DNA from: a virus | IMG/VR virus record: IMGVR_UViG_3300046787_000445 | Location: 1-26,305 of that record | Reading direction: 5' to 3' (one strand) | DNA: 26,305 nt | Notes under the pieces: generated by a model | The model's input: only the letters and a program-made list of their open reading frames with translations | What the model was told of the DNA's origin: nothing | The model's database searches: none | Translations under genes and position numbers: made by a program | In this document: one piece after another, positions 2 to 23,668 of the stretch | How positions within the stretch are numbered: the stretch's first letter is position 1 | How the letters are laid out: each line of letters opens with the position of its first letter

Positions 2-1387
2 AATCCAACACAAACTACAATATTTTACGATTCAAGAGTTAGTGGGGCAGTTATCGGTAAAACATTGTATTACGATAATTCGGGATGTCAAAAGGTACTT
101 AACGGTTACTACACAATTTCAGGAACATCACCATATAGAACATTTTACCATACAACAAATGGTGTTATTGATGGTATCCATACAATGGCAACATCAGGAA
201 GTACCGAAACGAACACGAGTCAACCAATAATAACAACCAATAAAGATTACTCAAGTAATTGGTATTATAATGGTATGAACAAAACCGCATTGAATAATTA
301 CACCGATAATATTGAATCGATAAGCAGTTTTGACCCAAATTCACTATATACGGATTCATCATTAAAAAAAGGATTTATTAAAACCCCAATAACTTTAGAC
401 GATTTTCAATTATATACTAATTTTACTGGAACAACATATGATGAGGCCCCGACAGGGTGGTATAGACCATTAATTGATTGGATTTCAAATGAATCGTTCT
501 ATTATTATAACACAGAAACAATAACCTTAGATATTGAAGAATATTGCGCATACACTGGAAATACGGTAACCACAAGGGGATTTTACGTGGTAGGTAAATC
601 AAGTGGAGTTTTAACTCCAACACCTAATCCGGTAACAATGGTTGTTAAGGTTTATACTACAGGTGATGTACTAACAGGAACATTTAATGTTACAACAAAT
701 ACATCAAATGCAAGAACGTTTGTTAATTACGGTAGTCAGGTTTTATTAAATGAATCAGTAACAAGTATTGTTATTGATTCTATTACATCAACTAACCCAT
801 TTAATAAGGTAACCTATACCGTTGGAACCTCAACTGTCTGTGGTCCAATTACAACACCAACGGCAACAAACACACCAACACCTACCGTAACCCCAACACC
901 TACACCAACCATGCTACCGGTTTCTGGTTTAACATGGACAACTTCAACAAACACAGTTGGTGTTGCGGGTTGTACAGATGCCGGATGGTTAATCACTAAT
1001 GGAAATGCAAGTATAAGATATAACGTATCCGATTCTGCGAATTGTGGAGGTACTTGTAGTGCAACTCAAACAGGGGTGGCAACTGCAACAATAACCGTAG
1101 GGTCGGCAAATACGTATTTAAATATTGATTTCGACGGTATTGGAGAAAGAGAATCCTCCGCCTATGATAAAATCACATTTAAATTAGATGGAACTCAAAT
1201 TGCCGACGCACACGCACCTGGAGGTAGTTTAGGTTGTTTAATGGGGCCAGTTGTTAAGACGTACCAAGTACCTGGACCATATTTATTATTGGCGAATTCA
1301 GTACACACATTAAGAATTGATTTTACTACGTTAGATGGTTTATACCATGTAGGGTCGTACTATCAAGTAGATTTAAGTTTCACATAA
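2..1387 (+). CDS. Tail fibre/adhesin-like virion protein, 5'-truncated by the window edge
   Basis: The frame is open from base 2 with no stop, so the true start lies upstream; the TTG at 65 is only an internal codon. About 461 residues are visible. The protein is rich in Thr, Ser, Asn, Gly and Tyr and poor in charge, as is typical of extended beta-structured phage fibres. A short Thr-Pro linker (bases 851-910) separates the N-terminal part from a C-terminal beta-rich domain of about 155 residues with several Cys and the acidic segment DFDGIGERESSAYD. The next gene starts 25 bases downstream and shares the Thr-Pro linker style, so both probably belong to the same host-recognition assembly. No enzymatic motif is seen. 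The role in adsorption is inferred from composition and neighbours, not from a recognised family. Confidence 0.75.
   Translation, partial: NPTQTTIFYDSRVSGAVIGKTLYYDNSGCQKVLNGYYTISGTSPYRTFYHTTNGVIDGIHTMATSGSTETNTSQPIITTNKDYSSNWYYNGMNKTALNNYTDNIESISSFDPNSLYTDSSLKKGFIKTPITLDDFQLYTNFTGTTYDEAPTGWYRPLIDWISNESFYYYNTETITLDIEEYCAYTGNTVTTRGFYVVGKSSGVLTPTPNPVTMVVKVYTTGDVLTGTFNVTTNTSNARTFVNYGSQVLLNESVTSIVIDSITSTNPFNKVTYTVGTSTVCGPITTPTATNTPTPTVTPTPTPTMLPVSGLTWTTSTNTVGVAGCTDAGWLITNGNASIRYNVSDSANCGGTCSATQTGVATATITVGSANTYLNIDFDGIGERESSAYDKITFKLDGTQIADAHAPGGSLGCLMGPVVKTYQVPGPYLLLANSVHTLRIDFTTLDGLYHVGSYYQVDLSFT
851..910 (+). repeat. Short Thr-Pro linker repeat
   Basis: Low-complexity ACA/CCA-rich DNA encoding alternating TPT, TNTPTPT and TPTPT units, about 20 residues. 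It separates two beta-rich parts of the fibre-like protein and matches in style the longer linkers at 1694-2083 and 8194-8490. Confidence 0.85.
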
Positions 1388-1412
1388 AATAAAAAAACAG
1401 ATAACTATATAA

Positions 1413-3629
1413 ATGAGATATTTTAACGTAAGGATTGACATAGGTGAGTCGAACAGTATTTTCAGTATTTATTACGATACCGTTGATTCAGGTCACCATG
1501 CGTTAATTTTTGACCCATTAGGAAGTACATTAAACGCCACTGGTTTAACTTACACACAATTAACGACAGGTGTTGGTGTGACAATTGAAATACCAAGTAG
1601 TGCAACGTCTATTGTTATTGATAGTTCACCTGAAGCATTTTGTACTGAAATTTTTGCGGTTAATGACCCAACATATACGATTTTTATAGGTAATCCAACA
1701 CCAACACCTACAACAACTGTTACAGTTACCCCAACTCAGACACCGACACCATCGGTGACTGCAACTCAAACGCCAACCCAAACGCCAACAAATACTGTTA
1801 CCCCATCGGTGACTGCAACTCAAACGCCAACAGAAACGCCAACCCAGACACCTACGAATACCGTTACACCAACAGTTACACCAAGTGTTACTGCAACTCA
1901 AACACCAACAAATACACCAACAAATACACCTACAAATACGGTTACCCCAAGTGTTACTCCATCAGTTACGCCAACACAAACAGCAACACAAACACCTACA
2001 CCATCTGTGACGGCAACTGTTACACCATCGATAACACCAACAAACACCGTCACACCTACAAAAACACCAACACCAACACCAACATATCCTGCACTTACAG
2101 TTATTGTAACTTCATTTAGTCAACAATCATGTTATAATGTAAATGATGGTTCGTTTACATTATCCGCATCTGGAGGTAACGGTGCACCTTATGAGTATTC
2201 AAAAGACGGGTCAACTTGGCAAACGTCAACAACGTTTACAGGATTGGTACCGGGTACATATACAGGTTACGTAAGAAACAATAACAGAGTGGGAACAGTT
2301 GCTAGTGTCTTTGTTGGGGATACAACAAGAAGTGCACCATCAGGAACTGTATCTAATGTTAACATATTATGTAATGGAGATTCTACAGGATCAATCACGT
2401 TACAAAACCCAACAGGTGGACAAGGTGGACCTTATGCAACTAAACTAACAACATCAGGCGGAACTGTTCTTTTTGCATATTCTAACATAGGTGGAACATC
2501 AAGAACTTACTCAACTTTAGCTGCGGGTTCATATATTTTATACTTAAAAGACGTTACAAGTCCCGAATGTTCTGTTCAGTATCCAATAACAATCACACAA
2601 CCAAGTGCGGTGGGAGTAACATTGTCAGGAAGTATAACTTACCCAACATGTTATAATACGAACGATGGTTCCGTTACAGTTACAGGTTCAGGTGGAGTAA
2701 CACCATACACATATAGTGTTGACGGTGGCACATATCAATCAAGTGCAACATTTACATCATTAAGTCCAACATCTCATGTATTCCGTGTTAAAGATGCTAA
2801 TGGTTGTGTGTCACCATCACCATATACCGCGAATTTAACTGTTACGGCACCAAATGCAACGATAACTGTGGATTCTAATGTAAGTTGTAACGGAGGTTCA
2901 AATGGTTCGATTACCGCATCAAGTCCATTCGGTGGTCAAAGTGGAGCATATACTGTGGCAATTGACAACATTAGTGGTACATACTTCTCATTCCCTAAAA
3001 CGTTCTCAAGTTTAACCGCAGGTACTCACACAATTTATGTGAAAGACGTTAACGGATGTATAGCATCATATAATAGTACAATAACTCAACCAACATTGAA
3101 CGTTGCATCAATTACTAACGTTGTCGGTGCAACTTCAGGAAATAACGGTTCATTAACGTTAACATCAACTGGTGGGGTGTTTAATAAAACTTATAGATTA
3201 TATAGAGATACCGCATCACCATATACTACAGGTTGTGGGGACACTTTAATTAACACATATACATCAATTACTTCAGGTTCACCTTCAGTTAACGTAACTG
3301 GTTTGGCATGTGGATACTACTGTTTAGAAGTGACAGACGCAAACGGTTGTGTGGTTAATAGTGGATTAGTTGAAGTCCCATGTCAACAAGCGGCAACGTC
3401 ATATTGGTTAGCGGACGTTTATAATTGTACATCATGTGGAACAGTTCAAGAGGCTGACGTATTAGTTGCCTTTACAGGTTCAGCAACGGGAATACCTAAT
3501 AGATACTATAACGCACTTAACGGACCGGATGGTAATGTTTATAGATTAAAAATAGAGGCTAGTCCGGGTGTTGCGTACTTAATTGGAGGTCCGGCGTACA
3601 CGGCATGTTCATCTGGTTGTCTGGTGTAA
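1413..3629 (+). CDS. Tail fibre/adhesin with Thr-Pro linker and SprB-like repeats
   Basis: A 738-aa protein in four parts: an N-terminal domain of about 93 residues (probable virion attachment); a Thr-Pro-rich linker at residues 94-224; five Ig-like units at about residues 226-660; and a C-terminal cap of about 80 residues ending in ACSSGCLV. The units carry the SprB-repeat signature, a Cys then NG or NDG, a short beta strand and GG, as in [32 protein letters not shown] and [13 protein letters not shown]. SprB repeats are known from Bacteroidota surface adhesins, including the gliding adhesin SprB. In a phage tail module they most plausibly form a receptor-binding fibre shaft that mimics or derives from host surface proteins (inference). 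The start ATG follows the previous stop by 25 AT-rich bases. No signal peptide is seen, consistent with a virion protein rather than a secreted one. Confidence 0.85.
1694..2083 (+). repeat. Long Thr-Pro minisatellite-like linker
   Basis: About 130 codons of TPT, TQTPT, TNTPT and [10 protein letters not shown] units. Some are near-identical at the DNA level: a 29-bp stretch at 1749-1777 recurs at 1803-1831, exactly 54 bases (18 codons) later. Such in-frame repeats can change length by slippage or recombination without breaking the gene. Threonine density would also suit O-glycosylation, which is untested. Confidence 0.9.
2089..3390 (+). repeat. Five SprB-like Ig-fold repeat units
   Basis: Tandem protein repeats of about 80-99 residues, approximately at 2089-2337, 2338-2604, 2605-2850, 2851-3093 and 3094-3390. 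Each opens with a variable strand, then the C..(N/D)G(S/T) motif and GG, and ends with a strand such as YVKDVNGC or FRVKDANGC. Unit 5 lacks the first Cys ([16 protein letters not shown]). Sequences are divergent, so this is an old repeat family, not a recent duplication. Confidence 0.75.
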
Positions 3630-3668
3630 TATAACGACATTAAAAATCCCTTTATTTAGAATATATTA

Positions 3669-3700
3669 ATCCTTATATTATTTAAAAATAATCTAAGGAT
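3669..3700. other. Near-perfect intergenic palindrome (hairpin)
   Basis: ATCCTTA at 3669-3675 pairs with TAAGGAT at 3694-3700, and ATTATTT at 3677-3683 pairs with AAATAAT at 3686-3692. One T/C mismatch and a 2-base loop remain. It sits in the 94-base gap between the SprB-repeat fibre gene and the next structural gene. It lacks a following U-tract, so it may be an mRNA processing or stabilising hairpin, a weak terminator or a protein-binding site. Confidence 0.7.
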
Positions 3701-3723
3701 ATTTACTAGTATATTATAATTTT

Positions 3724-4245
3724 ATGTCTGATTCGTTTGGTAGTATGTCATTTTTCGTCCCTTCTTTCCCAAAAGAAGGTGAATCCCAGTCGGGTATAAC
3801 TCAAAATTATTTAACAGATTTAGACTATACACCACATACAGGTACAACGGCATTTACAGGAACAACATTTTTTACTGCAATTGGTCAAAGTAAAATTTCT
3901 GAATTAAAGAAATACGGAACCAATGATTATAGTGGGGTTACTGTTAATATTGACGGTACAAGTGGGTATACCATAGATAATGTCACCTATTTAGATCACC
4001 CTGACGGACATACAATTTATACCGGACACACATCAGGTTTCACTCAAGAATCAATCATTAACAATGTATTAACAAGGAATGAACATTTCTTAGGATTTGT
4101 AGAGCAACCAAGAGTCTATTCGGATATTTTTGTTGAAAGAGGTAAACAAGGTGTTATGGAAGTAAACCTAAGATTAGGTGAAATAGATAATATGGGAGAA
4201 TTAAGTGTCTATGGTAATGGATATTATAAAGTTAAAAAACAATAA
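3724..4245 (+). CDS. Unidentified structural protein, 173 aa
   Basis: Not recognised as a named family. It is a soluble protein rich in Thr, Gly and Tyr, with several TGTT/HTGTTAFTGTT-type stretches like those in the neighbouring virion proteins. The C-terminal third is more conserved-looking (FVEQPRVYSDIFVERGKQG, then NMGELSVYGNGYYKVKKQ). No transmembrane segment or signal peptide is seen. It lies between fibre genes and baseplate genes, 25 bases before the next gene, so a small baseplate or tail component is the likely role (from context). It starts at ATG 3724 after an AT-rich leader with no Shine-Dalgarno sequence. Confidence 0.75.
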   Translation: MSDSFGSMSFFVPSFPKEGESQSGITQNYLTDLDYTPHTGTTAFTGTTFFTAIGQSKISELKKYGTNDYSGVTVNIDGTSGYTIDNVTYLDHPDGHTIYTGHTSGFTQESIINNVLTRNEHFLGFVEQPRVYSDIFVERGKQGVMEVNLRLGEIDNMGELSVYGNGYYKVKKQ

Positions 4246-4270
4246 GATTTATATTTATTAATAAAAAAGA

Positions 4271-5188
4271 ATGGCAGTAGGATCATATGGTATTATAAGA
4301 CCGGCAGACGTATCACCCGCAGACGTTGATATATTTTATCACCACGTTTCGGGTAGAACATCAACCGCAGAAGTTACGTTAAAAAAATTAACGGCAACAG
4401 AAGTATTAACACCCGTTTTTCACAACGAAGAAACGACAACAGAATCAACTGCACAAAATGTTGAGATTTTAGGTGGTTTATATAATCTAAAATTAAAAGC
4501 GGATGATTTTTCTGAGTTAGGAATCTACACTTTACATATTAGACCAAAACAAATTAGAACCGCAATTACAGATTGTGGTGTGTTAGCATCATTACCTTCA
4601 GTTAGAGGTTTAATTGTTGATATTTCCACAGTAACCGAAGGTGATAGAAATAAATTTACACCTCAAGGATTAGTTGGATATAGAATCGAATACTTAAACA
4701 CTGCGAATAATCAAAAGGTACCTAACTTCTATAGAGTGGTTACTTCATCTTTCTATTGTAAACCAATTGTTTCAAATTTAACAAATACAACGGATAAGGC
4801 CATTCGTTATCAATACACTGACCAAACATCTAATTTAATGTTTTTAACGGTAACACCAAGTTCTTCACCATCAAGTAGACCAAACGTAGTTCCGTTTATC
4901 GGTGAACCGGGTCAAAAAGTAATTTTAACTAACACATATTTCAATCCAACTACGATTGAAATTGAAATGGTTGAACACGATGCGTCTACATTGGCACACG
5001 CACTTTACGGTAACCAAACTAAAGCAATTACTCCGGGTATCTACACAATTTACGATAATAACAATAACATCTATAAACAATACAACTTATACGAAGTTAA
5101 AGACCAATTTAATGAAACACTTTACGAAGTTCGTGAAGAAAGAGATAATATTGATGAAACTTTAAACTTAGATAACATAACAGGATAA
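4271..5188 (+). CDS. Unidentified structural (baseplate/tail) protein, 305 aa
   Basis: No family was recognised with confidence. The protein is soluble and beta-rich, with a compact N-terminal half ([20 protein letters not shown], later [13 protein letters not shown]) and a C-terminal acidic helical tail ([17 protein letters not shown]). Its stop codon overlaps the ATG of the next gene by one base (TAATG), implying translational coupling with the 1178-aa baseplate protein. The shared operon and composition support a baseplate or tail-wedge component. The start ATG at 4271 follows an A-rich leader (AATAAAAAAGA). Confidence 0.75.
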
Positions 5189-8100
5189 TGGCAGTAGTAA
5201 AACACAAAGTACCAAGTCAACTTGGAAATGCGGGTGGAACATTTAGTGATAGTTTAGTTGGTAACCAAATTACTGACGGTACTAGTCAATTGACTAATAC
5301 TAACTTCGCCATTGATAAAGTTATACCTGAGAAAGACAGTAAAGATTTTAAAACATCTCCATTCTCTGATTTTTTTACTTTAGATACATTAAAAGAAGAA
5401 GTTGACGCACCTACCACAAAGGACGGGGACCCAACAAAAAATGAAAAAATTAAATTTAAAGGAAGTAAAGACGACGCTAATAAATCGTTGTTTGGTTCAT
5501 TAAAACAAAGATTACAAGTTTCTATTGGGAAAATTATTAATAAATTTCCCGCAAGTATGTTAATTGACGGAACATCCCCAACAAGTATTGTTGAGAATAC
5601 CGCCGAAAATGTCACATACGATTCGGTAACTAAAACAACACGATTTAGTATTAATCAGACGTTGGTATTTAATCCATTTGATATTGTCTTGACTAAACCA
5701 CAAAGTAATACGTTACTACAAAGTGAGAACAATATTAGAAATCTTTATTCATCATACACCAAATATGTTCTAGATTTTAATGGTGGTACATTTGACGTTG
5801 TTACATATACCGAACCAAATACAAGTGGTGACGTTTTCTTCAAAGTTAAAGGAGAACCATTTGTTGGTTTAACTGGTGTTACAGATAATTTTTTAATAAG
5901 ACCTAATGATGCAATTACTGAAGAGTTCTTCAATAATTTAGATGATTTAGAAACGTTATTATTAAACCGTGAAACAAGTCCAAAATATACCGCAACATTT
6001 AAAGTTCCAAGAGAAAGTTTTGATAAAACATCTACCGACTTAACCGACATTGAAGTTAGTTGGCCAGTATCAAGAGATGGTTGGAACATACAGATTATTG
6101 GTTTAGGTTATGACGAATTTCTTTATAACTTAAGTGCAATTGCTGATGAAATCGACATCTATAAATCAAATTTAGTTGTTAGATTTCTAAGTGCACCTCA
6201 ATTGTTTGAATTCGATACCGAAGAAAAAAAGGGTGAAACAATATTCCAATTATATGGTCAAAGTTTTGACAGGGTAAAAAAATACATCGATAACATTGCG
6301 TTCATGAGAAACGTTAGTTATGATGGTGTTAACAACGTACCGGACATTTTACTAAAAAATCTTTCGGAAACTTTAGGATTATCTACCGTTAACTTATTCG
6401 ATGAAAAAACATTAGAAGACACATTATATAGTAGACAAGACGCGAATTACCTTGGTGTCTCAATTGGTAAAACGTTAATTGAATCAGAACACGAATTCTA
6501 TAGAAGAATTTTAGTGAATTTAGCACATTTATATAAATCAAAAGGTACACGTTCATCAATTGAATTCTTTTTGAAATTTTTAGGTGCACCTGAACCAATC
6601 ATTAACATAAGCGAATATGTTTACAACGTAAAATCATTACCTAAAAATTTATCAGTACAAGATGATTTATATGATTTAATCCAAGGAAATAAAATTGACG
6701 TAACAATAACAGGGTTTACCGAAAGTACATACACATACCTAACAGGATTTACAACCGGTTCAACAACTTTATCGAGAACCGATTACCCTATTGACGAAAA
6801 TAACCTACCAAGGAAAGTTACAAACATTGATAGTGATATATTCTTCCAAAAAGGTTCAGGTTGGTACGATTTAACATTGAATCATAGGTCACCTACTGTT
6901 ATCGATACCGATAAATCAAGTGGTACGTTTATTAACGGAGAATTTGTTTTAACTGGTAGAACAAAAACAATTAAAACAAAACCAAAAGACTTTACTTACG
7001 GTGAAGATTATTTTGATAATTTTAGAACATTACCAGGTTTAGATTACGGTTTTGAACTTGAATCAAAAATAGATAATAAAAAAGTTAGTATTACTGACAA
7101 TGAAGACGAATCTAAGTTAATTTTAAATAGAAAAAACATTACCGTTCATTTAGATTCGGCAAATGCGGTTAACTATGACATTTACCGTCAATCAAGAAAC
7201 TTAGGTGTGAGTGGAGCCACCTTCGGTGATTTACCACCACAAAGTGAATTCTCATTTGCGGAATTCCTTGGTAACGTATTAAGTAAAACTATAAAAAATT
7301 CAAGTACCGTAAGATACAAAAACAATTATATTGATTTAGAAAATGTCTATTCAGATTATATTAATCAAATAACAAATAACGGTTACGTACCGTATAATTT
7401 TATTTCGGTAACTGAGTTTGTTAATAAAATGAGCCCATATTGGGTTCAAGTACTTGACCAATTTATACCTGCAACGACATTATGGACAGGTGGTAATTTA
7501 ATACAGAACGGTAAATTCAGTAGGTCAAAATACAAATATAGAAAACCATGTCAATTATTTGAAATGGTTGATGACGTTTACCCTGAACCAAGTTTCTCAA
7601 CGTACCTTAATGAAATTTTGAATGATTCCGACACCGGATTTCAAACATTATTAGGTGATAACGGTAAAGACGGTTATTTCAAATTAATGCCGTTATTTAA
7701 AATTGACGGAGTAAATTATTCGGGAACGACAAGTAACTCATCAACATATGCATTATTAAGTGGATTCACATCTAACACAGGAACAACAGTAGAAAACGCT
7801 AAATTATATTACGTTTCAGGTGATACTAATTGTATGGAACCAATCCCAACTACTGGAACAACAACACCTGGATTTGACGCTTATTGTATCGACGAGGTGA
7901 CGTTAAAGTATTTGTGGAAAAAAGCAATCATTGGAACTATAGATTATGTAAATAACAATTCGGGGTATACAAGGAATAGTGTAGGTAAAGATAACACATA
8001 CGGTGAAGAAATAGGTGTATCTGCGATTACAGGTACAACAGTTACAGAGGACATTTTATCATATGAATTTTTCTACGATAAAGACGGAAAGGAAAAAATA

Positions 8101-8724
8101 AGATTCAAATCGTTTAAATACGGAACAAATAATTGTACTGTAATGAAATCATTTGATTTCCAAATTGCTTTACCTATCAATTTTGATGCGGTAACGCCAA
8201 CTCCTACACCTACCCCAACACAAACTCCAACTCAGACCCCAACACAAACTCCAACACAAACTCCAACGAATACACCTACACCGACAGAAACGCCGACTAA
8301 TACCCCAACACCGAGTGTTACACCGACAGAAACGCCGACTAACACACCTACGCCGACTAACACTCCAACAATAAGTGAGACGCCGACTAACACTCCAACT
8401 CAAACACCAACGAATACACCGACACCAACTGATGACCCAATACCGTCACCAACACCAACGAATACACCAACACCAACGAATACACCAACCAATATTGTAA
8501 CTAACTATTTAATTGAGGATTGTTTAACTGCGGAATATTATAATATTGAAAAAACGTATGTTAAATCACTTTACGATGTTATTGAATATCAAATTGGTGT
8601 CCCTGGAGTAGGTATTAAACGATGTGGAACCATAATAGATGAAAATTTCGTAGGTACTGCAGATGCCGTATTCTATAGTTCAATTCAAAGGGATTGTGGT
8701 GACACTATACATTGTCCGTCATAA
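5188..8724 (+). CDS. Large baseplate/tail protein with Thr-Pro linker and Cys-containing tip
   Basis: A 1178-aa multidomain virion protein. Residues about 405-480 contain a segment, including [20 protein letters not shown] and [13 protein letters not shown], that resembles the phage tail protein I/baseplate-wedge helical region, in which a KGT motif precedes a hydrophobic helix ending in G. The middle is beta-rich. Residues about 1003-1101 form a Thr-Pro linker, followed by a terminal domain of about 75 residues ending [11 protein letters not shown]. The last domain recalls the cap of the SprB-repeat fibre in length, position and Cys placement, so it may be a receptor-binding tip carried on the baseplate. 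It overlaps the upstream gene by one base. Wedge assignment is moderate confidence; the virion role is firm from size, context and composition. Confidence 0.75.
8194..8490 (+). repeat. Thr-Pro linker repeat in the baseplate protein
   Basis: About 99 codons of TPTPT, TQTPT, TNTPT, TETPT units, with recurring DNA blocks such as ACGCCGACTAACAC and CCAACACAAACT. It joins the structural body of the 1178-aa protein to its small C-terminal domain. It is the same low-complexity type as at 1694-2083, although the third-base choices differ, so it is not a recent copy. Confidence 0.9.
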
Positions 8725-13470: not shown

Positions 13471-14285
13471 TAAAAAAAATTATACACATTGCCGATTTAC
13501 ACATCCGTACGTTCCAGTTACATGATTTATATCGTGAGCAATTTGAAAAACTAATTGACGAAGTTAGTAGACTGTCAACTAAATGGACAGAAGAAGGATT
13601 GAAATGGGAAGAGATTAGAATCGTAATTGCAGGTGACATTGCACATCAGAAAATTAATATTTCGAACGAACAGTTATTATTAACAAGTTGGTTTTTAAAC
13701 GAACTATCACAATACGGTAAAGTTGTTATCATACCAGGTAACCACGACTTCTTAGAGAATAACATTCAACGTATCGATAGTATTACTCCAATTGTTGAAT
13801 TAATAAACAATAAGAACATTGCATATTACAAAGATAGTGGTGTTTATGAAGATGAGAATATTAATTGGGTGGTGTATTCATTATACCAACATAACGTTAG
13901 ACCTGATTTTGTAAAAGAAGAAGGTAAGTTTCATGTTGGATTATTCCACGGACCCATACAAGGATTATCAACTGATATGGGGTTCACATTTGAAGATGCG
14001 TACGACCAATTAAATTTTGTTGACTTAGACTTATTATTATGTGGTGACATTCATAAACGACAAACTTTCACATTACCCGGAGGAGGTAAAGGTGTTATGA
14101 TTGGTTCCTTAATACAACAAAATTTCGGGGAAACAGTTAAACATCACGGTTACGGAGTTTATGATGTTATTAAAGACGAATACGACTTTATTGATTTACA
14201 AAACGACCAACCATTTCTCCATTTTGAAATAACAGACATTAAAGATATTGAAAATGGAAAAGAAGTTCACCTTAACCTTGGATAA
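13467..14285 (+). CDS. sbcD: SbcD/T4 gp47-like nuclease subunit
   Basis: A 272-aa calcineurin-like metallophosphoesterase carrying all metal-site motifs in order: D10-L-H12 (IADLHI), G56-D57 (AGDIAH), G91-N-H-D94 (PGNHDF), H161 (LFHGP) and G193-D-I-H196 (CGDIHK). With SbcC/gp46 it forms the Mre11/Rad50-type complex that resects double-strand ends and is required for recombination-dependent replication in T4. The length fits phage gp47 (bacterial SbcD is longer). The start ATG overlaps the stop of the preceding nuclease gene by four bases. Its SbcC partner is not next door but 1.4 kb downstream, after three other genes. Confidence 0.92.
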   Translation: MIKKIIHIADLHIRTFQLHDLYREQFEKLIDEVSRLSTKWTEEGLKWEEIRIVIAGDIAHQKINISNEQLLLTSWFLNELSQYGKVVIIPGNHDFLENNIQRIDSITPIVELINNKNIAYYKDSGVYEDENINWVVYSLYQHNVRPDFVKEEGKFHVGLFHGPIQGLSTDMGFTFEDAYDQLNFVDLDLLLCGDIHKRQTFTLPGGGKGVMIGSLIQQNFGETVKHHGYGVYDVIKDEYDFIDLQNDQPFLHFEITDIKDIENGKEVHLNLG

Positions 14286-14784
14286 GGAATTTATTCAATT
14301 CTGTGAGTTAAATAAAATTACCGACATTAATAAAAAAGCAACGGAAACCTTCAATCGAGGGTTTTCTTTGTTAAAATACGGTGAAACTCCAAATGGGGTG
14401 ACTAACGTTACGGAAAAGATAGTTGAAAAGATTATTGAAGTGCCCGTTGAAGTGATTAAGGAAAAGATAGTAGAAAAGATTATCGAGGTTCCCGTTGAAG
14501 TCATAAAAGAAATTAGAGTTGAAGTACCAGTTGAAGTTATTAAAGAAGTTTTAGTAAAAGGAGACACCAAGGTAGTAACTAAAGAGGTTATAAAGGAAGT
14601 CCCTATTGAAAAGGTAATATTCGACACATCTAAAGAAATTGCCAAGGATAAGGAAATTGAAACTTTAAAAATTGAAAACGATAAATTAAAATCCGATTTA
14701 GATAAAATCACATCCTCATTAAATAAATTTAACAAGGGTACATTCATGAAGAATAGCGATTTAGGTTCACTATATAGTGAATAA
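14254..14784 (+). CDS. VPVEV-repeat, coiled-coil protein inside the SbcDC cluster
   Basis: A 176-aa protein without a recognised family. Residues 1-45 form a small compact helical region (FIQFCELNKI, then ATETFNRGFSLLKYG), possibly a DNA- or protein-binding motif. Residues about 54-99 are 16-residue repeats of the type EKIVEKIIEVPVEVIK, followed by shorter EVPVEVIKEV units. Residues about 130-160 form a charged coiled coil, and the tail ends SDLGSLYSE. ATG 14254 is preferred over the TTG at 14248. It overlaps the sbcD end by 32 bases, which suggests coupled translation. Its position suggests an accessory factor of the nuclease complex or a structural spacer, but this is inference only. Confidence 0.8.
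   Translation: MEKKFTLTLDKEFIQFCELNKITDINKKATETFNRGFSLLKYGETPNGVTNVTEKIVEKIIEVPVEVIKEKIVEKIIEVPVEVIKEIRVEVPVEVIKEVLVKGDTKVVTKEVIKEVPIEKVIFDTSKEIAKDKEIETLKIENDKLKSDLDKITSSLNKFNKGTFMKNSDLGSLYSE
14413..14550 (+). repeat. 48-bp direct repeat encoding EKIVEKIIEVPVEVIK
   Basis: Two 48-base units (14413-14460 and 14461-14508) encode the same 16 residues with several synonymous differences. A third, shorter unit (14509-14550) encodes EIRVEVPVEVIKEV. Synonymous drift with protein identity suggests selection on the repeat, not a fresh duplication. Confidence 0.85.
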
Positions 14785-21766: not shown

Positions 21767-22786
21767 ATGAAACATTGGATTAATAAAAATTATAAAACAC
21801 TAATCGTAGCGGCGTTCCTGATTCCTATCATGACCGTTGCTGTAGTGTCGATTTCTCACGTTACTAAATGGTATGGTATATCTAATCCCATGTCATGGTC
21901 GATTTATTTATCGGTAGGTATTGAAATTGCTGCGTTATCAGCATTAGCAGCGATATCTGCAAACATGGGTAAAAAGGTTTATTTTCCATTTGCAGTTGTA
22001 ACTATAGTACAATTTATCGGTAATATATTCTTTGCATATTCATATATTGACATCAACTCGAAATCATTTAAGGATTGGGTTGAATTAGTCTCACCTATAT
22101 TAGAAATCATTGGAGTTGACCCTACTGACCCTATTGGACATAAAAGATTCTTAGCATTCTTCGCTGGTGGTATGTTACCAATTATTTCATTATCTTTCTT
22201 ACATATGTTAGTTAAATTTACTGAAGAAGATAGAAAAAGTGAAATTATACATGACATCGATGACAAACTAAACAATAAAGTAGAAGCGTCTGAAATCATT
22301 AGTGAAGTTTCTCGTTTAAGGTTATCCGATGAGGATTTAGAAATATTGGCTAAACATTTGGAAAACCCATTACCACCTAATGAACATTTAAAATCTGCAG
22401 CTAAAAAGTATCAAGAAAAGAATGAACCAAGTGAGGCTATTACATCAACACCAGAAGTAGTAAGTGACGTAATTGAAGAAGAAGTGTACCCAAGCTTATC
22501 TGACGAAGAAATAATGGAAATGAACCAACAAGAATACGAAAGAACTCTTGACGTACCTGAAGATGAATTTGACGGGTTCGTACCTGAACCATTTGCAACA
22601 CCGGAAGAAGTTGAAAAATTTAATATTGACAACCTTGATAAAACATTAGAAATTGTTAACGAAGAAATCGATAACAGTAACGAACCGATTTATCAATCTG
22701 AAACCAAAGAAATTGATGAGATTATCAACGTTGTTGATAATGCCATGGACGAATCTCCAAAAGAGGAAGAAGAAAAAAAAAAGTAG
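21767..22786 (+). CDS. Four-helix membrane protein with acidic tail; zero-frame product of a probable frameshift
   Basis: A 339-aa protein with four likely membrane segments (about 10-31, 43-66, 70-92 and 128-150), then a long acidic cytosolic-type tail (about 155-339) rich in Glu and Asp and ending PKEEEEKKK. No family recognised. The frame ends at TAG 22784, immediately after the heptamer A-AAA-AAG (22777-22783). The -1 frame is open for another 100 codons (to the stop at 23085) without an ATG until 22864. A -1 frameshift would therefore yield a 439-aa product with an added Pro-rich extension. Alternatively the 10-A run contains an assembly error and the gene is simply longer. Confidence 0.78.
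   Translation: MKHWINKNYKTLIVAAFLIPIMTVAVVSISHVTKWYGISNPMSWSIYLSVGIEIAALSALAAISANMGKKVYFPFAVVTIVQFIGNIFFAYSYIDINSKSFKDWVELVSPILEIIGVDPTDPIGHKRFLAFFAGGMLPIISLSFLHMLVKFTEEDRKSEIIHDIDDKLNNKVEASEIISEVSRLRLSDEDLEILAKHLENPLPPNEHLKSAAKKYQEKNEPSEAITSTPEVVSDVIEEEVYPSLSDEEIMEMNQQEYERTLDVPEDEFDGFVPEPFATPEEVEKFNIDNLDKTLEIVNEEIDNSNEPIYQSETKEIDEIINVVDNAMDESPKEEEEKKK
22777..22783 (+). promoter_or_regulatory. Candidate -1 ribosomal frameshift site
   Basis: A-AAA-AAG in the reading phase X-XXY-YYZ of the gene at 21767, identical to the heptamer used by E. coli dnaX, directly followed by the zero-frame TAG stop. The -1 frame continues for 100 codons (GTA at 22783 onward, stop at 23083-23085). The A run is 10 bases long, so a sequencing or assembly indel is the main alternative. 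Confidence 0.55.
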
Positions 22787-22808
22787 AAAGTAAATATAAC
22801 TTTTCCAA

Positions 22809-22860
22809 TGTAGGTACTCACGTTCCAGTTTTCTATAAATTTGGTCCTGGAGTACCTACA
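22809..22860. other. Perfect 11-bp inverted repeat downstream of the slippery site
   Basis: TGTAGGTACTC at 22809-22819 and GAGTACCTACA at 22850-22860 with a 30-base loop, which can also form an inner CCAG/CTGG pairing. It begins 25 bases after the slippery heptamer, further than the usual 5-9 bases for a stimulatory structure. It could still slow ribosomes, or serve as an operator or processing site. Confidence 0.7.
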
Positions 22861-22863
22861 ATT

Positions 22864-23085
22864 ATGCCTGACCCTACCCCGTCACCAACACCATCACCTG
22901 AAACCGACGAATTGTATTGGGAAAAAGATGACGTTAATCCAAATCAAGTAATTTATGATTTGGAAAATAATCAAACTATCATACCTCAATCCGAAGACGA
23001 AATTACCATAACACCGACAATTAATTCGGTACCACAAATTAAAGTGAGAAATGTTAGTGATACACAATATAGAAACAATCGATAG
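22864..23085 (+). CDS. Pro-rich segment, probably the -1 frame extension of the upstream membrane protein
   Basis: From ATG 22864 this encodes 73 residues (PDPTPSPTPSPETDELYW, then acidic sequence with VIYDLENNQTIIPQSEDE). The same frame is open back to 22741 with protein-like sequence before the ATG (SNVGTHVPVFYKFGPGVPT), which argues that the real unit is the frameshifted continuation from 22783 rather than a separate small gene. The PTPSP stretch recalls the Thr-Pro linkers of the tail proteins. It overlaps the amidase-fold gene by 35 bases. As a free-standing gene it has no recognised function. Confidence 0.5.
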   Translation: MPDPTPSPTPSPETDELYWEKDDVNPNQVIYDLENNQTIIPQSEDEITITPTINSVPQIKVRNVSDTQYRNNR

Positions 23086-23668
23086 TCAGAAATTAAAAAT
23101 CAGTAAAAGAAAGACTAAAAAAACACAAATTTTACTTTTTGACACTCAAAGAAGGGTCGACGATTATGTAAATAAAATAAAGTACCGTAGAAACGGTAAC
23201 TACGACGACGTTCCACATTTTATCGTTAGTAAATTAGGTATGGTGTATCAGTTATTTGACACCAACCATAATTCTAATACGTTTAATGACCCCAAAATTG
23301 ACAATAGAATGATTAAAATTGCAATTGAGAACTTGGGTTGGTTAAACAAGAATACTATCACTGGTGTCCTTAATAATTGGATTGGTGACCCATATCGAGC
23401 GGAACCCTATATAAAAAATTGGAGAAATTATTATTTTTGGGACAAATATAACGACGACCAACTAAATGCACTATCTAAACTATGTGATAAATTGTGTATC
23501 GACCACGATATTTTTAAACAAACGGTTCCATCACAAGGATATATTGAAAAGATATCAAATTTCAAAGGGATTGTATGTAAATCCAACTTTTCAAGTATTT
23601 ATACAGATATAAACCCTTCATTCAATTTTAGGGTATTCTTTAACAATCAAAATGAAAACGAAAACTGA
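23051..23668 (+). CDS. N-acetylmuramoyl-L-alanine amidase-like (amidase_2 fold) protein with altered metal ligands
   Basis: A 205-aa protein whose order of elements matches the T7-lysozyme/PGRP amidase fold: ILLFDTQRR (first strand), VPHFIVSKLGMVYQLFD (about 54-70), MIKIAIENLGW (about 87-97) and GIVCKSNFSSIYTDINPSF (about 173-191). In active family members the first strand carries a zinc His (HH or HC), replaced here by F30-D31; the second His of the GIxxHS motif is replaced by C176; the third ligand position may be D186. H56 is kept. It may be a remodelled enzyme or a peptidoglycan-binding pseudo-amidase. Context, after envelope genes and before virion-like genes, fits lysis or a tail-associated wall-binding role. 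No signal peptide. Confidence 0.65.
   Translation: MLVIHNIETIDSQKLKISKRKTKKTQILLFDTQRRVDDYVNKIKYRRNGNYDDVPHFIVSKLGMVYQLFDTNHNSNTFNDPKIDNRMIKIAIENLGWLNKNTITGVLNNWIGDPYRAEPYIKNWRNYYFWDKYNDDQLNALSKLCDKLCIDHDIFKQTVPSQGYIEKISNFKGIVCKSNFSSIYTDINPSFNFRVFFNNQNENEN

Follow-up and report, generated by a model that had tools for sequence, protein, structure and literature searches.

A conserved A-run joins a phage membrane protein to a -1-frame extension ending at the endolysin gene, probably by programmed transcriptional slippage

Introduction

Cases of programmed transcriptional slippage have been described in bacterial dnaX, type III secretion genes, IS elements and RNA viruses. A run of nine in Thermus thermophilus dnaX yields long and short products, and nine A or T residues are enough for efficient slippage of bacterial RNA polymerase (PMC5009743). 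Slippage in Shigella spa13 governs spa32: there, as in mxiE, the slip gives a C-terminal extension whose end overlaps with the beginning of the following gene, and in spa13-spa32 the expression of that following gene depends on slippage (PMC5009743). Bacterial IS elements that use transcriptional slippage show an A9-type run with frame fusion, and an argument from avoidance by length was made for them (PMC1088944). Two phage systems also bear comparison, namely the methyltransferase gene of Campylobacter phage CPt10, a single mutated gene with a poly-A frameshift for which slippage was suggested (PMC2853527), and lambda G/GT, in which a conserved -1 ribosomal frameshift gives a minor longer protein. 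No conserved, lineage-wide programmed transcriptional slippage in DNA phages was found in the literature searched.

The locus described here lies in the window, the whole 26,305-nt stretch of viral DNA that was analysed. The arrangement in the majority of its members, with an unslipped short and a slipped long product, resembles that of Shigella spa13 and mxiE (PMC5009743). Unlike spa13-spa32, which are secretion genes of a bacterial plasmid, it belongs to phages and its next gene encodes an endolysin, the dependence of which on slippage we infer. Four relatives that are fused in a single frame (L018, L021, L034 and L037) are closer to T. thermophilus dnaX, as off-frame stops would end their slipped products (PMC5009743), although in most members the order is reversed, the unslipped product being the short one and the slipped product the long one, and the gene is a different one. 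With lambda G/GT the locus shares a conserved -1 frameshift in a phage and a minor longer protein, but it encodes a membrane protein rather than a soluble chaperone, stands beside sigma factor and endolysin genes rather than next to the tape measure gene, and probably depends on run length instead of a heptamer with signals. No transposase is involved, unlike in the IS elements, the setting being a phage membrane/endolysin locus, and in contrast to CPt10 the site is conserved across a phage lineage. The kind of mechanism is already known; within the literature searched, novelty lies in the phage setting, the mobility of the cassette and its geometry relative to the endolysin.

Methods

Relatives were collected from IMG/VR scans, many of them on contigs of 50-335 kb. 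Removal of duplicates left 47 distinct slip loci, comprising the window and 46 others (38 with the membrane anchor termed A and nine with anchor B), a set that includes close relatives and does not represent 47 independent events. Avoidance of A-runs was assessed using synonymous-codon shuffles of 421 other genes from slip loci. A match in the run census (A10, L249) was discarded because the run is intergenic, lying between two genes. When the region was searched as DNA against INPHARED phages, there was no match.

Results and Discussion

The membrane-protein gene and its A-run

The membrane-protein gene sits between the sigma factor and endolysin genes, the window upstream of it carrying a sigma-70-type factor and further phage genes. 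Its last codons are GAA AAA AAA AAG TAG, so the A-AAA-AAG heptamer followed by TAG that an earlier note on this DNA had described was read as claimed, within a run of ten As (Table 1). The -1 frame is likewise open across the junction, reading KKKVESKYNFSNVGTHVPVFYKFGPGVPT... up to a stop at 23083-23085, and the growth of the product from 339 to 439 aa given in the earlier note was reproduced by computation. In shuffled sequence, a -1 ORF of this length after the run is rare (P ~0.0005). An SD-like (Shine-Dalgarno) site was found at one of 23 window genes only, a scarcity from which we presume a Bacteroidota-like host.

Table 1. Coordinates of the features of the locus in the window
Feature	Position	Strand	Remarks
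Membrane-protein gene, zero frame	21767..22786	+	Short isoform, 339 aa
Multi-helix membrane anchor	~residues 1-155 of the 339-aa protein		AlphaFold2 model and homologues
Tail segment like the toxin-neutralising C-terminal part of TacA-type (DUF1778) antitoxins	22283..22417	+	PF08681
A10 slippage run (putative), GAA AAA AAA AAG	22773..22782	+	Counterpart in 47/47 slip loci
A-AAA-AAG heptamer within the A10 run	22777..22783	+	Exact form in 5/47 sites only
-1-frame extension, 100 codons and stop, readable only after a slip	22783..23085	+	pN/pS 0.39; LYWEKDDVNPNQVIYDLENN
Zero-frame TAG immediately 3' of the run	22784..22786	+	In relatives, stop 0-12 nt past the run
Stable hairpin inside the extension coding sequence	22809..22860	+	z -3.5; not conserved
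Endolysin gene (Amidase_2)	23051..23668	+	ATG within the final 35 nt of the extension frame

Two repeat-bearing regions were also observed elsewhere in the window: large structural-type ORFs with long Thr-Pro repeats (TPTPTPT) at 65-8724, and an ORF at 14248-14784 built with IIEVPVEVIKE repeat units.

Conservation of the run and of the frame change

The slip loci come from dozens of uncultured lake phages, often very large, and the resolution of their core tree is too low for a count of gains and losses. All 47 share a common layout, with a run of A9-A11 (A9 in 2, A10 in 33 and A11 in 12), a zero-frame stop 0-12 nt further on and an extension in the -1 frame of 34-152 aa (median 80); a run of at least nine A or T, a mark of programmed slippage, is therefore kept in every homologue of the set. 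The +1 frame past the run closes after 4-40 codons (median 26). Comparison of homologues for a slippery site or a fused frame thus gave a conserved run, an extension conserved in frame, and four relatives fused in one frame, and the programmed frame change between membrane protein and extension that the earlier note had proposed is upheld by the conserved run and extension frame and by the ATG at 22864, which is not conserved. The frame change is real, conserved and programmed.

A sequencing or assembly indel in the homopolymer, which would make the locus one longer ORF or two ordinary genes, had been named in the earlier note as the competing explanation. It is hardly credible: A10 runs are prone to error and four homologues are single ORFs, but the same register is seen in 47 distinct loci from many metagenomes with a conserved stop immediately past the run, and these loci, together with the identical run length in exactly recurring contexts, exclude it. 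Two ordinary genes are further opposed by the extensions themselves, most of which contain no ATG, and by the part before the first start, which is equally constrained.

Phase variation, in which replication slippage would alter the genomic run length so that phages toggle between short and long forms, is very improbable and was rejected since run length is constant in recurring contexts: in all 43 contexts that recur exactly, a single run length is seen (for the L061 type, in 12 contigs). Long A-runs are liable to mutate, L196 (A10) differs at the run from its near relative L197 (A11), and four relatives are fused in one frame; against this, 47 of 48 unfused loci share the same 'short' register, and the fused relatives keep A9-A10 and differ in sequence beyond one A. 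The L196 and L197 loci (about 3893-3926) are near-identical, the one-A difference placing L196 in another register, and they are the sole close pair that differs in run length. A second A9 run was observed earlier in the same tail of some slip genes (L015:5491, L078:4629, L081:4662 and L090:4640). A slip there would end the protein shortly afterwards, possibly giving a third isoform.

Selection on the extension

ATG is absent from 38 of the 47 extensions, and ATG, GTG and TTG are all absent from six, so that at least these six could be made solely via a frame change. Pairwise pN/pS was 0.35 in the tail and 0.39 in the extension, with 0.40 in that part of the extension which precedes the first possible start. 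The extension is accordingly kept by purifying selection, including the portion ahead of any start codon, and the mark of programmed slippage found here is an extension conserved at the protein level (pN/pS 0.39-0.40) without a start of its own (38 of 47 without ATG). Separate expression of the ORF beginning at 22864, which the earlier note had set against a frameshift, was rejected because its ATG is not conserved among homologues.

The segment LYWEKDDVNPNQVIYDLENN of the window's extension was found again in relatives. Across members, conservation is seen in the segment LYWE.DD.NPNQVIYDLENN and in RNVGN..RR, the second of these lying where the frame overlaps with the endolysin start and owing its conservation partly to double coding. 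A Pro-rich extension, as the earlier note had put it, holds for some members only and is not a general property; in some members the extension has a PTPSPTPS stretch that resembles the Thr-Pro repeats of the window at 65-8724. Among L061, L079 and L088, synonymous divergence is 0.03-0.10 in the extension compared with ~0.6 in the neighbouring tail, which suggests that the extension-endolysin part has recombined or is under additional constraint.

Polymerase or ribosome

In the 421 other genes, observed and expected numbers of runs were 298 and 333 for A7, 52 and 106 for A8, 7 and 43 for A9, and 0 and 32 for runs of at least ten; runs of at least nine As, 7 observed against 76 expected, are thus counterselected elsewhere, a further mark of programmed slippage. 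Runs of A6 were not depleted, and those of A7 hardly, in any phase, so that avoidance depends on length, is alike in all phases and has its onset at 8-9. Consistent with this, KKK elsewhere in the genes of these phages is spelled as nine As in 1 of 188 cases. In-frame heptamers in other genes were not avoided (A-AAA-AAG, 75 observed and 74 expected; A-AAA-AAA, 102 and 117). Avoidance based on length, together with this tolerance of heptamers, indicates that it is run length, not the heptamer, that is dangerous to these genomes. All 47 sites carry at least nine As, and the codon after the first in-frame A-AAA-AAA is AAN in 47 of 47 against a background of 17%. Avoidance by length in every phase and at least nine As at all sites point to RNA-polymerase slippage, the same length argument having been used by Baranov et al. 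(2005). As replication slippage also adds to avoidance (PMC1088944), we infer, rather than observe, that the polymerase slips and not the ribosome, and the same applies to the slip rate and to the coupling of the endolysin discussed below.

Programmed -1 ribosomal frameshifting at A-AAA-AAG or A-AAA-AAA, like that of E. coli dnaX and possibly stimulated by a hairpin, is an unlikely explanation. The direction is always -1, and every site has an in-frame A-AAA-AAA (the window also has A-AAA-AAG), but the former is inherent in any run of nine As, and at least nine are present at all sites though seven would do. The inverted repeat that the earlier note had placed after the run exists as a stable hairpin in the window; however, it starts 26 nt past the run, lacks conservation among relatives and is probably not part of the mechanism. 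When 42 stretches downstream of the run were folded, there was no conserved structure at a suitable spacing (mean z -0.23 compared with -0.37 for control stretches), and RNA structure was rejected as a stimulator. An upstream Shine-Dalgarno-like stimulator of the dnaX type was judged unlikely, 22 of 23 window genes being without such a site. Avoidance of the heptamer in ordinary genes, which would support ribosomal frameshifting without strictly defining it, was not seen. A ribosomal slip at X-XXY-YYZ with a stimulator, the form in which the frameshift had been proposed earlier, was therefore set aside, A-AAA-AAG occurring in 5 of 47 sites only. A caveat to the polymerase reading is that the window itself has A-AAA-AAG then TAG as well as the hairpin, and since every run of at least nine As holds an in-frame A-AAA-AAA, some ribosomal slippage at the same site is possible.

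Transcriptional rather than ribosomal slippage is most likely, judging from these sequence comparisons, and as a whole the locus is very probably best explained by the A10 run acting as a programmed transcriptional-slippage site that gives a short and a long isoform. RNA polymerase, probably the host enzyme and possibly with the phage's own sigma factor, would slip on the run and insert an extra A, or remove two, in a fraction of the mRNAs. The unslipped mRNA would be translated into the 339-aa membrane protein ending just after the run, while on the slipped mRNA the downstream frame would be in register and the 439-aa form with its C-terminal extension would be made. Gene callers split these genes, which is a warning for annotation.

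Geometry of the endolysin start and the fused relatives

In 46 of 46 slip loci with the endolysin ATG located, the extension stop lies at -38 to +21 nt from this ATG, whereas in the slip loci the zero-frame stop lies 102-417 nt upstream of it. Coupling by slipped mRNAs is the simplest functional reading of an extension stop near the endolysin ATG and a zero-frame stop far upstream, and this geometry suggests that endolysin translation, too, is coupled through slippage, in the manner of Shigella spa13-spa32. Less certainly than for the two isoforms, ribosomes on slipped mRNAs would reach a stop overlapping or adjoining the endolysin ATG and the others would stop 102-417 nt earlier, by which slippage might set the amount of endolysin through translational coupling. 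Alternatively, the endolysin could be initiated independently of upstream translation. In the fused relatives, as in almost every relative that lacks the extension, the single frame likewise runs up to the start of the endolysin gene.

In the fused relatives (L018, L021, L034 and L037) the membrane-protein gene reads straight into the C-terminal part in a single frame. All four retain A9-A10 runs, and owing to off-frame stops downstream a slip would shorten the protein by 34 to 253 residues. As these relatives keep the run while a slip would truncate the product, it seems to be the two-isoform output, and not one register, that is under conservation. More distant anchor-A relatives have a shorter tail without the extension; a run of at least nine As is present in 5 of 44 loci of this extension-free class, one of the five (L084) being a slip locus cut by the contig end.

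Membrane anchors, tail and the module

The AlphaFold2 model of the membrane domain is a helical bundle (mean pLDDT 79.5), with helices at residues 9-35, 41-64, 68-93, 99-114 and 122-169 of the window's anchor; the remainder of the 339-aa protein is a long, acidic cytoplasmic tail, probably disordered. Compared with PDB folds the model gave no match, matching only uncharacterised phage proteins, and the domain had no relative in genome contigs and one weak relative among phage records (LR756500.1). No holin family of Pfam, PHROGs or NCBIfam was matched, nor any PDB fold at E<=0.001; from the position of the gene, a holin role is possible. PADLOC found nothing.

The Pfam family PF08681 was matched by the window's tail with an E-value of 2.8e-6, above the curated cut-off, at profile positions 36-80, and by 16 of 16 members scanned, including L018, L199 and L015, the last with the best E-value (4e-8). 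Weak matches of the tail to PDB chains were to KacA/TacA, DUF1778. The toxin-neutralising C-terminal segment of TacA-type antitoxins is thus present, with a membrane anchor in place of the N-terminal ribbon-helix-helix, and no adjacent partner GNAT toxin gene was found among the neighbouring genes scanned. A role of this segment in countering GNAT toxins is possible from its sequence likeness.

Tail, slip site, extension and endolysin occur as a module behind the unrelated anchor B in nine loci (hhalign probability against anchor A, 0.2%). Relatives of anchor B are found in Flavobacterium, Xanthomonas, Stenotrophomonas, Pelagibacter and Microcystis phages, usually with a different C-terminus; whenever the tail behind anchor B is the one seen with anchor A, slip site, extension and endolysin are found as well. 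We tentatively suggest that RNA-polymerase slippage forms an exchangeable cassette at the lysis locus, setting the isoform ratio and endolysin translation, which would have moved between anchors and had its register inverted in some lineages while its two-isoform output was kept. Were this so, lysis would depend on the error rate of the polymerase. Slippage, if confirmed, would recur in dozens of phages directly upstream of the endolysin, surviving both anchor swap and register inversion, and would add an extra layer of control to phage lysis loci.

Anchor B itself (L199:2445-3176, matches H2-H13) is a membrane and coiled-coil protein annotated only as hypothetical, and it occurs in the unrelated large phages Flavobacterium immuto, XacN1, Mosig, RAS14 and Mel-JY01. 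One anchor-B gene with a different tail has an A9 run near its zero-frame stop (L276:3851-3859), past which the usual C-terminus (WINDQNAVNYW) is recovered in the -1 frame; this run is either one error or a slip site independent of the others.
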